Shown in pieces: positions 2,201 through 12,917 of a stretch of DNA of 36,711 bases (positions within the stretch are counted from its first letter, which is position 1; each line of letters opens with the position of its first letter). The notes under the pieces are model-generated. The model did no database searches and was not told the DNA's origin. It was given only the letters and a program-made list of their open reading frames with translations. The translations under genes and the position numbers were made by a program. Source of the stretch: Blepharisma japonicum (taxonomy: Eukaryota; Ciliophora; Heterotrichea; Heterotrichida; Blepharismidae); contig CATKHK010000166.1 in NCBI GenBank assembly GCA_949751835.1, positions 1-36,711 of the forward strand. Direction: 5' to 3'.

Positions 2201-5200
2201 ATGAATAATTCGAACCTCTTTGAACCTCTACTTGAGAAGAATCTTAATTCATCAAATGTTTTGCCTCAATTGAAGCAAGTAACTGCATCGACGCCTAGGC
2301 TATTTACAGAAAATGGAACTGAGCCAGAGCTTTTATCCCTAAAGCAAGCAGTGATTAGCATTTCTGCCGAGTTCGAGAAAAAACTGCCTCATGCAGTCAG
2401 TCTTCCTTTCAGTGTTGAGGAGATGATTCCATTTTCAGATCAAATCCATTACCTAGTATCTACCAGGGAAGGAACAATTCTTTACCTTAATATTTCAACC
2501 CAAAGCTTCAACGACAAAAAAATTTCAGCTGGCCCTTTCTCAATAGTTGTTTTGGAAAATGAAAAAATGGCTTATTTTTCTAGAGAAAATGAAATCTTAT
2601 GCATTAGCATCCCTTCACTGGAGTTAAAACTATTTCAAAAATTTGAGGGCAAGCGTCTAATTTGTTTAAAAGATTCTTGGGATAAGAAAAGTTTAATTGC
2701 TCATTTTGATAATGAAATTACTTCAATAAGCTTTTCTGATCCAAGAGAAGCAAAATCGTTGATCGTAGGCAACTTTACCAGCATAGCTATATCAAATAAA
2801 GGCCATTTTGCTCTTATATCCTCTGAGGATCAACTAGTACTTTTGTCTTCTAAGCACGAAAAAATTGGTGAAGTAGCGATTGACCCAAAAAGCCTCAAAC
2901 TGAAATATTCACCACAACTATCAATGATCATTATTAGTTACATAACAAAAATAGTTATTTTAAATGCAGAAACTCTAGAAAATATCCAAAATATTAAAAT
3001 GTCTGAAAATGAAGTTGGAGTTTTCTCTGTGACTAATGATGAACATTTTATTTTGTTTCCAGATAATGAAGTTCTGCATTTCTATGATTTGAGGAGCTTT
3101 CAAGATAGAGAAACAGTAAATGTTGATAATTTTCAAATAAAATTTATTGCACAGAGCATGGACAACCGTTCAATTTTAATTAATGGGCCAAATAGCAAGT
3201 TTTACGTGCTGCCTTTTCCTGTCTTTGAATATCAAAAATCTAAAGATATCTTTTGAGCTGAAAGTTTGGATAGAACTAGAATGATAATCAAGCATGAAGG
3301 ATATTTCAAGACCTGGGACTTTGAAACTGATAAAACAGAGAATATTGTTGAAGTTAAGATAGGAGGCTTGGAAGTTAAAGATCCGGAAAACTTTATAGTC
3401 TGGAGCAGAAGTGAAGTTGGTTTTAGTAAAATAAATATTCCAACTAAATCAATCTCAAATGTTGTTTTAGACAAAAATTCTTATGAGATGATAAGATCCA
3501 CAGCCTTCAGCCCTGACAAAAAATTTTTTACGACTGGAACAGAAAAGAGAGTGTTTTTATGGGACTTTGAATCATTGCAAATAATTAAAGAATTCAAAGG
3601 TCATGATACCACTACATGAACAATGTGCTTTTTGACAAAATCAAATGCAATAGCAGGAATGGCTCAAAACTGTTCTATAAGGATATGGGACATTGAAACC
3701 ACGAAAGAAATTGCAGTCATCAATGAAAATACAAACACCTATAGCATGAATATAACCCATAACGAAGAAATCCTTATTTTGGTCACCATTGATTCATATA
3801 TCAATATTTGAGATTGAAGGAAGAATATTCGTCTTCATTCAATAAAAGGTATATTTCCAGCGATTGTTAAAGTCATGATAACGGAAGATGATAGATTCAT
3901 GATTGGGTATTCCCGCGATGGGAAGGTTAGATTTTTCAGCCTAGAGACCTTCAATCTAATATTTTCATATAAGTTTGAAAACATGATATGAATAGACTTT
4001 CTGCTAGGAGAAAATCATATTTTTTATATATATAAAGCTAAAACAGAAGTTCTCGGGGAAGTGACTGAAAAAACTGTGGTTGTCATCAAGGAAAACCCAC
4101 TAAAAGTTAGCAAAATCACATGTGCAGGTCCAGGAAATGAGTATGAGTATATGAAGTACGTCTCAAAGTTGCTAAAGAGTAAAGAGGTTGATTATAATCC
4201 TTTAATGGATGAATGAATAATTTTCCCTTATATGATCAATACCCTCCATCTTTATGCGTACTGCAACTATCCAAATCACTTGAAAAAGGCACTTAAAAAT
4301 GGTTCATCAATGATTAATAGTATTTTCAATAAAAATCCATTATCAATTGCAATGCTAAAAGGATTCAAAAATTGTATCAGCTCAGTCATTTTAACACTTG
4401 ATAATTATCTAGTGATTCATCCTTATTCCTTGAAGAATTTGAGTATTGACGGCTTAATCAAACTCAATCTTTCAAGTTGCAGCTCTTTAGTAACTTTCTA
4501 TGAATCAATATTTAGAAAAGATGTAAGCGAACACCTCGCCAAATTTTGCTGTACCTCTACCCAGCTTCCAGTTCAATTCTTATCAAAAAATATTTACATT
4601 GAAACTGGCAATCTTCTTAATAAAGAAGCTTTAAGAGAACAAGAAAAGCCTATTGTTTATATTTCTTCACATATTTTGCTAGACATGGCTGTTGGGTCAC
4701 AGAAATCAATTGATTTTTTATATAGTATTCATGGCTCCCCAAATCCAAGCATCATGATGACTTCCCTGATTCAAGAAATCATTCATTATAAATGAAGAAA
4801 ACTCAGCTGGGTAATGCATCTCCAAGCTCTGGTCTATATTGTGTATATGCTCTTGCTTTCTTTCTATGTTCTTTATTTCATTGAAAACGATAGCGTACTA
4901 TTCATTTTGTTTGGTGAAAGCGTGATTATATCGCTTTATGAGGCCTACCAACTCTGGGCCTCCCCACTGAGTTATATCAAGGACTTATGGAATTATGTAG
5001 ACATTGCAAGAACCATTTCCTCAATCTTATACTTTGTTATATATCTAGCTTCTTCGACTTCAACTATAAGGCACGATGTGCTCTCGTTTTTAGTCATAAT
5101 TTCTTGGATGAGAGGAATTGCTTATTTTAGAGTATTTTCAAATACACGGTATATGGTGAATCTAATTTCAGAAGTAATCAAAGACATGGCTACCTTTTTA

Positions 5201-5755
5201 ATTCTGCTGTCTTATTCAACAATTTCGTTTGCTTTTATTTTTTTGGTGTTAGATAGTAATAATCCTCAGTTTATTGATTATTTAAAAATATCTTACAGGT
5301 TTGATGTGGGAGATTTTGATACGACCGATATGAACTCTATGCAATGGATTTGCTTCTTTTTGGTTTCTATGATCAACATGATTGTTATGTTGAATTTGCT
5401 TATTGCCATTATTGGGGACACTTTTGAGAAAGTCCAAGAAAACTATCTAATTGCTGATACGCATGAGCTTTTAAATATGATAATTGAAATTGAAACAATG
5501 CTAATTAAAAACAGAAATGCTTCTGATCCTTGCTACTTCCAGATTTGTATTGAAGATAATTCTGATGAAATGAAGGGTGAAGAATCCAGATTCAGTTCAT
5601 TGAAAAAATATATTAAAGCTCTCCAAGTTGAAAACGCAAAAACTAATGAAGAAATCAGCAACGTTAAAACTCTTGTGGAGAATAATCAAAAAGAGATGAG
5701 AGAAAGCTTTGAAAAGCTTTCCCTCGCCATTTCTGCAAAGAACAAGGATGAATAA
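2201..5755 (+). CDS. WD40-repeat protein fused to a TRP/polycystin-like ion channel
   Basis: One frame of 1,184 codons, ending in TAA, once seven in-frame TGA codons are read as Trp (3254, 3617, 3809, 3815, 3989, 4214, 4793); ten other Trp are TGG. The N-terminal half (about residues 60-620) is a beta-propeller-like region with WD repeats such as IRIWDIETTKEI and VFLWDFESLQII. A linker (about 670-860) has weak ankyrin-like helices. From about residue 872 there are at least five hydrophobic helices. The last part reads as pore loop plus S6: YRFDVGDF, then MINMIVMLNLLIAIIGDTF (about 1058-1076), typical of TRP/PKD ion-transport domains. A short coiled coil ends the protein. Role inferred: a gated cation channel in the plasma or ciliary membrane, with the propeller as a cytosolic regulatory module. 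Ion selectivity cannot be read from the sequence. No intron is needed. Confidence 0.85.
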
Positions 5756-8415: not shown

Positions 8416-10725
8416 TTAAATCGGCCCAGATGAACTTCTAGATGGTGGCTTGGCTCCTGAAGACTCATCAATTGTATCAACTTGATTCCATTCAGGCCCA
8501 AGTCTTGGCGGTCTCGTTTTTCTTGAATAAAGCGCTTTTCAATTAACCCCTTCAAAAAACTTCATTTTTTTCATTTGAGAAGTTAATGGTCTTTTCCCGG
8601 GATTCCTGTTCATTAATTGGCTAATTAAATCTTTTGCGCTGTCAGAAATATAGCTTGGAAATGTCAACTTCGCTGATTTTATATTTTTAAATAAAACTTG
8701 TGTATCTTCATTATAATAAGGTGGCATCCCTGTGAGCATTTCATACAATAGGGATCCTAAACTATACATGTCTAATGCTTGGTTTGACGATTGCTTTTGC
8801 AATATTTCAGGAGCCATATAAGCAGGAGCCCCACAAAAAGATTTTGCTGGGTTAGCTTGGCTTACGTCTTCTTTAGCTAGTTGGAAATTAGTAAGTCTTA
8901 TATGGCCTAGAGCATCTAAATAAATCGTTTCAGGCTTCATATTCCGATAAACAACATCAAGCTTGTGGAGATAGTCTAAGGCAAGAACTGCCTCAGCAAG
9001 ATAAATCTTGGCAGATTCTTCATCGAAGTGCCTCCTCAAGTCCAAATGGTTTCTGAGGGTTCCATTTGGGCAATATTCCATCACTAAATATAAATGATTC
9101 TGAGATTGGAACGACTGGTGTAATGATAAAATAAAAGGATGCTTTGTTTTTTTAAGGATTCTATATTCAGTCATAGCAAATTTGACACCATTAATTTGTT
9201 GTAAGTGAGGCTTATTATAGACTTTCATGCAGAAAATCTTATTGCTGTCAATTTTCAATGCTTTGAAAAGTCTTCCTAAGTGTTCCACTCCAATTTCTTC
9301 TATAATGTCATATTGTTTTGTTTGAGGTGTTACTTCATTTAAAAGATCAGAAATTCCAAATTTTGGCTCAGCTGAGTCAGGCAAAACAGGTGACCCAGGC
9401 TCAATATTTGCTTTTGGGACACCAGATTCATTAATATCAGATGTTTCTCTAGTAATTGCTATGAAATGTATTGGGTTTCTTGTTGGCGAGCTGTCTTTTG
9501 TTTTTAGTCTTTGCCAGTAGTCACAGGCTTCTTTTATTCTTTTTGTCCATTGTTCACATACCTCAGGGTAATATGAGTTATATTTAAACTTCAAAGCCGC
9601 AGTTTCTATAATGAAATAATAATAACTTCTATTAAATCCTTTTGTAAAGAGATTTTTCAAGTCTCTGACTTCATCAAAAATGATGGAATATTTAGGCTCT
9701 TGGTTATCTAAAAACGATTCACGTGATTTATAGTGATATAAAAATCCTTCCTCAACGTCTAGGACCAAATAAACCAATTTATCGGTGCCAAATACAGGTT
9801 TGCTTCAATTTATGACTCCAGAAAAATTAGGCGGCATATCAGGATCTCGAACCTTTTTAATAGTATATCTCTTAAGCATTTGCTCACCCATATATTTTGG
9901 GATTTCTTCTAAAATTGCTGGCTTGTTTGCGTATTCTAATGGGATTTTGCCAACTGGATCTTCTAGAGTCATTGAAGCCCCGTGCTCAAGCAATAAAATA
10001 ACAATTGCTGTATCTCCTGATTGGCACGCCAAATGAAGCGCTGAGCCTTTATCTTTTGACATTTGATTAACATCGATGTTAGGACAAGATACTAATAACT
10101 TTGCACATTCAAAATGGCCATTTGCACATGTCAATTGTAGAGCAGTCCAGCCATCGTCAGTTTCTCTGTTTAAATTGACTCTTCAATTTAGCAATTCTCT
10201 CAATATTTCAATATTTCCATTTTTGCAGGCATGATGGATGCACCTTCACCCAGTTTTGTAAGGTTTGTTTAAGAATGTTGTAATTTCTCCCTTTGGAACA
10301 GTATAATTCATACTTGCTGTATACTGCTCAATTATTTCCCTCAACTCTTCCGGAGTTCCTAATTTTGCAATCTAAGTTACGCTTACCATTATAGCTTTTC
10401 CAATCAAATTGGCGTCTGAGTATCTTTTTCTCCCATAACTTTCTACCAATAGCTCTTGGTGATTTGTATCCAATTGCTCTCTTAAATGGACCATTTCAAG
10501 AAGCACACTCGATCCATTTTCAAGGCCATAAAACTTGCAGGACCAACCTTCAACAATCATCACTTTTACATCACACATATAAGTGTACAGTTTTAGCCTG
10601 TTCGTGTTTACTCTAACCTTTTCTTCAATTTTTGATTTCAGTTCTGTAATTGTTGCGTTTTGTTGAAGCGAAATCTTACAAAATGTGACTTGAGGGTCTT
10701 CATGTTTCCGAAGCACAATTTCCAT
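8416..10725 (-). CDS. Ubiquitin-like/ankyrin/PH/AGC-type protein with predicted inactive kinase domain
   Basis: Two exons (10725-10387 and 10371-8416) flank a 15-nt intron, gtaagcgtaacttag (10372-10386). The product is 764 aa with at least four TGA-encoded Trp. Domains in order: a ubiquitin-like fold (1-80); ankyrin repeats (about 150-290, e.g. GSALHLACQSGDTAIVILLL); a PH domain (about 305-400, ending EQWTKRIKEAC); an AGC-family kinase domain (about 467-720); and an AGC-like tail (FFEGVNWKALYSRKTRPP). The VAIK-type Lys (MKVY, about 496) and the APE motif remain. The glycine loop is degenerate (GVEHLG). The catalytic YRD is YRN (about 590), the metal-binding Asn of KPEN is Thr (about 595) and DFG is NFQ (about 608). 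Losing all three should abolish phosphotransfer, so I infer a pseudokinase scaffold of Akt-like layout that binds membrane lipid through its PH domain. Partners are unknown. Confidence 0.88.
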
Positions 10726-11546: not shown

Positions 11547-12917
11547 ATGAAATCCACCAATTTGTAATTTTTATTCAGTCTTGATGTCCACGCAGTTACT
11601 TGGTCACGAGAAACACATGGTCTTTTCGATTACGAGTCGCGAACTGTCCACAAATCAGATTTCAAAATCAAAAAATCAGTAATAATCAATAGAAACGGAC
11701 ACAACTGCTTTCTATGCGACCACCAAACCAAAGAAACGAATTACGACAGCTCAATTCCTCTCCTTGGGGTCAAAGTCCATAACCAGGAATTTATAGCTTA
11801 TCAAGCAAGTGAGAACTCGAGCGAAAAAATGTGACTTGTTGTAAAATATATGAAAATGAACGGATCCAAAGGCATTACATTGCATGAAGGTGACTGATTG
11901 AAACTTGGAAGGGTAAGGCTCAGGGTCAAAAAAATTTTTATTTATAACAGCACTAATGGAGAAAATAATGATATTCAAGGGATCCCTAAATATCTTGAAG
12001 GGCTGAACACAGAGTGCAGGTCAGTAGATGATGGAGCTGAAGAAAACAAAGAAAACACAGAAAAAGCAGCATGCAGAATCTGCCTCTTCGACACATCCAC
12101 AAAAGAAGACCCTTTGATATCCCCTTGCAAGTGCTCCGGAACTATGAAATCTGTTCATGTGAATTGCCTTAAAGAGTGACTAAAAAATAAGGTAGAAACC
12201 AGGCAATCAGAGAAAGCCACCTCATATTGTTGAAAAGACCTCTCATGTGAGCTCTGTAAAAACCCATTACCTTCAAGCATTTTAGTAGATGGAGAAAAAG
12301 TTGAATTAATCAGCATGTCTTACCCCCAGTCATCATATATATTATTTGAAGATTATCGGCCCGAATTTAGGCAAAGCTATGGTATACACCTTGTTTCTAT
12401 TCCTAATGGCCAATACGCAGTTCTTGGACGTGGCCACGAATGCGATATAAAGCTGAGCGATATTTCTGTCAGCCGCACACACTCAAGAATTAGATTTCTT
12501 AATAATTCGTTTATTATTGAAGACAAAAGCAGCAAATTCGGCACTCTATTGCAGCTGAAAAGAGCAATCCAGCTGAACTCTTATAAGGAGCTTACAATTC
12601 AAGTTAACAGAACTATTTTTCACCTAGCGGTGAAGGAGCCATGAACAGTGGCAAGATTTTGCTGTCCTTGCATGGCGAAAAGAGTGGTACCAATAAATGT
12701 GATTTCAGACTTGACAGAAGACGGAGTTCCTGAGCCAGAGCCAGATGAGGCTGAAGAGAGAGAAGATATTCCTTCCCCAGTGACGATGGCTAGAGAAGAT
12801 AGCTCTCCTCAAAGAGTAAGAGAGGATAGCTTTCATTTATTGGTGCCTCAGGTCATGCAAAATATTAGATCTGAAATGATGATTGTACCGAATGAAGAGT
12901 TAAAAGATGATTTTTAA
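11547..12917 (+). CDS. RING-CH (RINGv) and FHA domain protein, probable E3 ubiquitin ligase
   Basis: A 17-nt first exon (11547-11563) is joined over a 15-nt intron, gtaatttttattcag (11564-11578), to exon 2, giving 451 aa with several TGA=Trp codons and TAA at the end. The RING-CH zinc domain spans about residues 171-233 (CRIC, CKC, HVNC, CELC; C4HC3 order), the type found in MARCH-family E3 ligases. A phosphopeptide-binding FHA domain lies at about 270-350, with GRGHECDIKLSDISVSRTHS and, after a short gap, the SSKFGT block. The first 130 residues end in LHEGDWLKLGRVRLRVK, which resembles part of a second FHA-like fold. The C-terminal tail is acidic, rich in Glu/Pro/Ser. No transmembrane helices are seen, unlike most MARCH proteins. 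Role inferred: ubiquitin ligation targeted by phosphothreonine recognition. Confidence 0.87.

Follow-up and report, generated by a model that had tools for sequence, protein, structure and literature searches.

A predicted pair of pseudokinase genes in a ciliate family of ubiquitin-like, ankyrin, PH and AGC kinase fusion proteins in Blepharisma japonicum

Ciliates have very large kinomes, and a 2017 preprint by Reiff and Marshall on the kinome of Stentor announces novel domain architectures in its title. Two described pseudokinases are of particular relevance to the protein studied here: ILK, which belongs to the TKL group, and VRK3, which belongs to the CK1 group and is not known to carry an ankyrin, PH or ubiquitin-like (UBL) domain. 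ILK is a scaffold that, like our protein, combines a pseudokinase with ankyrin repeats and a PH-like stretch; according to a later view this stretch does not bind PIP3, and the portion of that article used here mentions no UBL, which our protein has (PMC8799556). VRK3, in the part of the source drawn on here, has active paralogues, an acidic residue (Asp) at position G52, a degraded Gly loop and an intact Lys-Glu pair, its purine pocket is filled, and it does not bind nucleotide (PMC4718504). In the Phytophthora infestans kinome, ankyrin repeats are described together with AGC and TKL kinases in three proteins, and PH domains on some kinases, a likeness at the level of description (PMC3019232, in part), and 38 unplaced kinases of the ciliate Ichthyophthirius were counted as likely pseudokinases (PMC3341644, in part). 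Within the open-licence literature, no title or abstract opening that we found names a UBL-ankyrin-PH-AGC kinase architecture.

The gene under study lies on the minus strand, at positions 10725-8416, of what we call the window, the whole stretch of 36,711 nucleotides of Blepharisma japonicum contig CATKHK010000166.1 that was analyzed; all coordinates given below for this gene refer to that strand. A sequence-only reading of the window had assigned 8416..10725 to a 764-residue product, and both values are correct, given that TGA is read as tryptophan and that a 15-nt intron is removed. Under genetic code table 4, in which TGA encodes Trp, the open frame is broken by a single TAG, located inside the 15-nt stretch GTAAGCGTAACTTAG (10372..10386), which was called as an intron from sequence, without a transcript; the full product requires its excision and Trp at four TGA codons, and ends at a TAA stop (8418-8416). 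Exon 1 (10387..10725) encodes residues 1-113 and exon 2 (8416..10371) residues 114-764 and the stop, and the intron position, after residue 113 in phase 0, is shared with the closest paralogue, C28. Moreover, W724, one of the residues encoded by TGA, is invariant across a 19-row family alignment. Reading TGA as Trp and having 15-nt introns are traits of heterotrich ciliates such as Blepharisma. The Blepharisma telomere repeat had 0 matches in the window, which speaks neither for nor against a heterotrich, since not every contig is expected to reach a telomere. Elsewhere in the window, on the plus strand, WD40-type repeats and an ion-transport channel region occur in one 1184-residue protein (2201-5755, TGA as Trp), and a 362-residue protein joins RING-variant and FHA domains (11829-12917).

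We then examined the domain composition of the product, in which the sequence-only reading had seen a UBL, ankyrin, PH and kinase fusion. The fusion was confirmed, with all four domains in this order, the UBL and the PH domain being recovered only by means of family profiles or paralogues. In a Pfam search, the kinase domain (residues 467-719; 8554..9312; Pkinase 4e-58) and the ankyrin repeats (Pfam span, residues 148-251; 9958..10269; Ank_2 1.9e-20, Ank 7.6e-18) were clear, whereas the UBL and PH models remained below cut-off in the whole protein (E 0.023-0.11). The UBL domain (residues 1-81; 10483..10725), searched as a separate piece, matched UN_NPL4 (0.0011) and ubiquitin (0.0033), again below cut-off. 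When seven UBL pieces of the family were scanned, C35 (ubiquitin) and C27:352 (Ubiquitin_2, ubiquitin) scored above the cut-off, C32 exactly at it (25.4 vs 25.4), and the other four, that of the window protein included, below it. A UBL-like start could be read in 16 of 20 PH-containing genes, and was not found for C123, C30, C7 and C13 in the sequence stretches examined; a profile built from segments of 14 of these 16 starts (C152 and C8:190 were omitted as near-copies) matched single-copy ubiquitin chains at about 1e-9. Single-sequence structure models were poor (mean pLDDT 34.6 for exon 2 and 49.6 for exon 1), and comparison of the exon 1 model with the PDB, in which the rows shown were mostly ubiquitins, is not taken as evidence for the UBL because the best E value was 0.63 and none reached 0.001. 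For the PH domain (about residues 286-403; 9502..9855), a scan of 19 family members gave Pfam PH matches in 10 of them at E<=0.1, with a best value of 4.5e-6, and a profile built from the PH segments of 14 genes, out of the 20 that contain the domain, matched the PH domains of SBF1, pleckstrin and TAPP1 at 1.1e-4 to 8.9e-4.

Comparison of the kinase domain with the PDB gave 2605 matches, and the 60 listed are all AGC kinases (RSK, Akt, S6K, SGK or PKA; E 1.6e-60 to 1.4e-53), so the AGC-like nature proposed earlier was borne out; no ILK chain occurs among those 60. Beyond it, the C-terminal tail (residues 720-764; 8419..8553) opens like an AGC tail (NWKALYSRKTRPP), and FFEGVNWKALYSRKTRPP aligns with the start of the RSK tail. 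Within the domain, the ATP-anchoring β3 lysine (K496, PKA K72; 9223..9225) and the APE motif are retained, as had been said, and the three motif changes reported with them (YRD to YRN, KPEN to KPET and DFG to NFQ) are all present. From the alignment and the codons, N590 (8941..8943) replaces the catalytic Asp (PKA D166), T595 (8926..8928) the metal-binding Asn (PKA N171), N608 (8887..8889) the DFG Asp (PKA D184) and Q610 (8881..8883) the DFG Gly (PKA G186). By alignment, Glu515, Gly50, Gly55, K168, the activation-loop Ser, D220 and R280 are also retained, as are the three regulatory-spine residues checked. Judged by its sequence, the window protein is a pseudokinase. Residual kinase activity by an unusual mechanism appears highly improbable: the Lys, the Glu, K168, the activation-loop Ser and APE are in place, and one review names CASK as a pseudokinase that is active (PMC4718504, in part), but D166, N171, D184 and the DFG Gly are replaced both here and in C28.

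Paralogues were sought in the window's own genome (45.2 Mb, 224 contigs), in which the N-terminal 463 residues found 92 matches and the kinase domain 126, with the window gene counted in. Splice-aware alignment allowing introns of 15-17 nt gave models for 31 of the 125 further kinase matches; of the 30 fetched loci, L054 and L055 have no model. Nineteen of the modelled paralogues have a PH domain and a kinase domain, and 18 of these also have ankyrin repeats, the model of the remaining one (C13) beginning close to where the ankyrin region ends; the other 12 combine kinase and ankyrin, with no recognisable PH. D166, N171 and D184 are all retained in 29 of the 31 (17/19 with PH, 12/12 without). 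The 17 intact PH-containing paralogues share with the window protein the domain order and the AGC kinase fold, at identities of 27-43% over the ankyrin region (taken as residues 114-285 in all paralogue comparisons; the lowest value is for C13, over 33 columns) and 38-47% over the kinase domain; unlike it, they have YRD or FRD, KPxN and DFG, and 16 of 17 keep the second of the Gly-loop glycines. Of the 20 PH-containing genes, 19 entered the main alignment, and C32 was omitted because its model retained one stop, probably a further short intron. The twelve ankyrin-AGC kinases without a recognisable PH domain (L056-L067) carry W-S/T near the C-terminus in 12/12 cases and GW-S/T-F in 10/12, the latter resembling the hydrophobic motif of S6K and RSK.

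Two PH-containing paralogues depart from this pattern. C28 (C28:389875-392130), which is 61% identical to the window protein, has YRG, KPES and NFY, and has thus lost all three residues. Codons in the window gene and C28 are AAT and GGA at D166, ACG and TCA at N171, AAT and AAT at D184, and CAA and TAT at G186, respectively. A sequencing error is very unlikely, since four codons carry separate base changes and the same four are altered in this nearest paralogue. Orthologues with intact YRD and DFG, together with a sequencing error, had been named beforehand as grounds for giving up the pseudokinase; intact relatives do exist, as paralogues, and the error part of that objection is made very unlikely by C28. 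A segmental duplication of the window gene and C28 together with flanking genes is unsupported within roughly 1.5 kb on each side of the C28 gene, where the acyl-CoA ligase, RINGv-FHA and channel neighbours found no match. The other paralogue, C7 (C7:377748-379568, minus strand, locus L011), retains D166 and N171, has Val for the DFG Asp and Cys for the alpha-C Glu, and shows a gap in the activation loop; it appears to be another ANK-PH gene whose kinase domain has degraded, independently of the first two.

In a midpoint-rooted kinase-domain tree of 32 sequences, the window gene and C28 formed a clade (100/100) with a long stem of 0.71, and C7, a long branch whose position is unsure, was placed together with intact paralogues in a nine-member group (94/94), adjoining C123 and C30 at 88/67 in a second tree. 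The window gene is accordingly placed, as far as sequence can tell, in a two-member dead branch of the UBL-ANK-PH-AGC kinase family, and since this clade is separate from the position of C7, catalytic residues appear to have been lost at least twice within an otherwise intact family.

The losses in the dead branch seem to cluster in the nucleotide site. Thirty-six positions of the kinase domain are invariant in the 29 intact paralogues, and the window protein has lost eight of them, 6 of 11 at nucleotide or catalytic positions versus 2 of 25 elsewhere (Fisher 0.005), with the same counts in C28; C7 has lost 6 of 11 and 6 of 25 (Fisher 0.12). These Fisher values are descriptive, because the position set (16 nucleotide-site positions taken from PKA and from PMC4718504, in part) was drawn up when the motifs were already known. 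In a leave-one-out control with the 29 intact paralogues, 27 lost none of the set, C123 one and C133 two.

Lost catalytic residues could also mark a decaying, functionless gene copy, a reading we find scarcely credible, as the gene keeps a 764-codon open frame and an intron site common to C28, and non-synonymous differences from C28 lie far below the synonymous ones in all four domains. Between the two genes, pS is saturated (0.73-0.84) and pN is 0.28 in the UBL, 0.20 in the ankyrin region, 0.22 in the PH domain and 0.24 in the kinase domain; many comparisons gave infinite or very large synonymous distances, and dN/dS is therefore not given. Identity is 20% in the linker (30 columns) as compared to 60-66% in the domains. 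On the open frame and this excess of pS, the pseudogene reading was rejected. By sequence, the four domains have thus stayed conserved since the two dead genes split, although purifying selection does not identify the function retained. Moreover, the kinase had a lower pN than the ankyrin region in 6/6 intact pairs, five with PH (kinase/ankyrin 0.129/0.132, which is nearly equal, 0.035/0.059, 0.012/0.049, 0.132/0.229 and 0.171/0.265) and one without (0.026/0.092), the pairs being partly non-independent as C61 was used twice, whereas the order is reversed in the dead pair (0.24/0.20). Such a reversal is consistent with a kinase fold that is retained for binding once catalysis is no longer demanded of it.

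We then focused on the nucleotide pocket, which was read from the alignment because the structure models were poor. In both dead paralogues, the Gly loop and pocket show G52>E, S53>H or Q, F54>L, V57>L, A70>C or T and L173>Y, and the catalytic motifs D166>N or G, N171>T or S, D184>N and G186>Q or Y. A70, V57 and L173 line the adenine pocket (PMC4718504, in part). An occluded pocket is the likelier reading for the window protein because these changes resemble VRK3, with the difference that the filling of the VRK3 pocket is described in a paper and that of the window protein is read from the alignment at A70, V57, L173 and G52. It is unlikely, although worth considering, that the protein instead binds ATP in the manner of ILK, as a structural ligand for partner binding and with no catalysis. 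Lys496, Glu515, Gly50 and Gly55 are retained here, and ILK binds ATP at micromolar affinity despite a divergent Gly loop, a Ser for N171 and no catalytic Asp; however, ILK retains the DFG Asp (PMC4718504, for both points in the part of the source used), which is Asn in the window protein, and in both dead paralogues L173 is Tyr and A70 is Cys or Thr, two positions of the adenine pocket.

The sequence-only reading had further suggested a membrane-recruited scaffold related to Akt-type signalling, and this suggestion was supported for the layout and not for the recruitment. Akt (RAC kinase), like the window protein, has a PH domain followed by an AGC kinase domain, and a profile of 19 family members aligns with Akt across both domains in one stretch. 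In addition, the Akt and AktR families are expanded in ciliates (PMC3341644, in part). Akt is not known to have a UBL or ankyrin repeats, both of which precede the PH domain here, and it possesses a hydrophobic motif and catalytic residues. The basic motif by which PH domains bind phosphoinositides is K-Xn-(K/R)-X-R. By alignment, this motif is incomplete between β1 and β2 of the PH domain of the window protein (K304, K311 and then V for the expected R), weaker still in C28 and absent from the family consensus; furthermore, neither a hydrophobic motif in general nor the F-x-x-F-S/T-F/Y of Akt was found in the 45 residues beyond the kinase domain, including the tail RPPRLGPEWNQVDTIDESSGAKPPSRSSSGPI. 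Membrane recruitment of the Akt type is unsupported because the full phosphoinositide motif and the hydrophobic motif of the tail are both missing, and we regard a scaffold brought to membranes by phosphoinositides as quite improbable.

To place the family in a wider context, relatives in other genomes were scanned, with 80 loci listed of 279, of which L069 was the one studied. L069 (1-4318) is a 4318-base environmental contig in a record labelled as a Candidatus Paceibacterota MAG, and has C4A4 repeats, the telomere sequence of spirotrich ciliates, at its start; it is apparently a mis-binned, ciliate-like chromosome end. The product of its eukaryotic gene has a start that resembles a UBL, ankyrin repeats, a PH-like region and a kinase domain in which the motifs read YRDLKPDN and DFG. 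Pfam recognised the kinase (1.1e-60) and the ankyrin repeats (Ank 1.1e-22), with ubiquitin (5.4e-5; 23.3 bits vs 25.4) and PH (0.0012; 19.8 vs 25.1) below cut-off, and the alignment was identical under genetic code tables 1, 4 and 6. In the tree, L069 joined the PH-containing branch (100/98) on a long branch, and not the ANK-only branch. The fusion would then be common to different ciliates, if the telomere reading of L069 holds, and both have the form with intact catalytic residues. Loci L070 to L148, which have bacterial titles, match chiefly in the kinase domain at 21-32% identity. A 74-kb IMG/VR contig classed as viral (L068) encodes an AGC kinase domain with intact motifs, which falls in the ANK-only branch on a long branch.

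The domain combination had been put forward as one not recognised from described families, and the fusion proved real and not peculiar to one protein, as 17 of the 19 PH-kinase paralogues are intact and L069 shares it. Because intact paralogues and L069 carry the same arrangement, we read the fusion as a ciliate kinase family, and the new result is this context: by sequence comparison, the family is mostly intact and has a two-gene dead branch. A two-gene pseudokinase branch inside a ciliate family of UBL-ANK-PH-AGC kinases is an interesting case and not a startling one.

Regarding function, the reading we prefer, with a probability of roughly 0.6, is that the dead UBL-ANK-PH-AGC kinase is a folded, non-catalytic scaffold or allosteric partner of the active paralogues or of their substrates. 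The pseudokinase would keep a closed, folded kinase shape by means of the Lys-Glu pair, the three spine residues and the activation-loop Ser, with its nucleotide pocket occluded or weakened, and may serve as a protein-interaction module, while the UBL, ankyrin and PH domains would bring partners together. The window protein would thus probably act as a docking or control partner and not as an enzyme. By comparison with other pseudokinases, the likeliest targets would be active paralogues or their substrates, regulated by allostery or competition; that the dead proteins regulate their active paralogues is something we infer from that analogy. A more specific version, possible and put forward tentatively, holds that the two dead genes are dedicated regulators of the at least 17 intact UBL-ANK-PH kinases, working as an ILK-like scaffold of independent origin within the AGC group of a ciliate, with a pocket locked closed by side chains of its own and without requiring ATP. 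ILK is, by description, the nearest analogue in layout, and the likeness would be convergent.

Altogether, these results suggest that a layout resembling that of ILK, with ankyrin repeats, a PH domain and a pseudokinase, can arise from an AGC kinase. The Blepharisma genome offers a natural experiment, since a single multi-domain family has both intact and dead members there, with two independent losses of catalytic residues, and the family permits a direct test of whether pseudokinases become regulators of their own active relatives.
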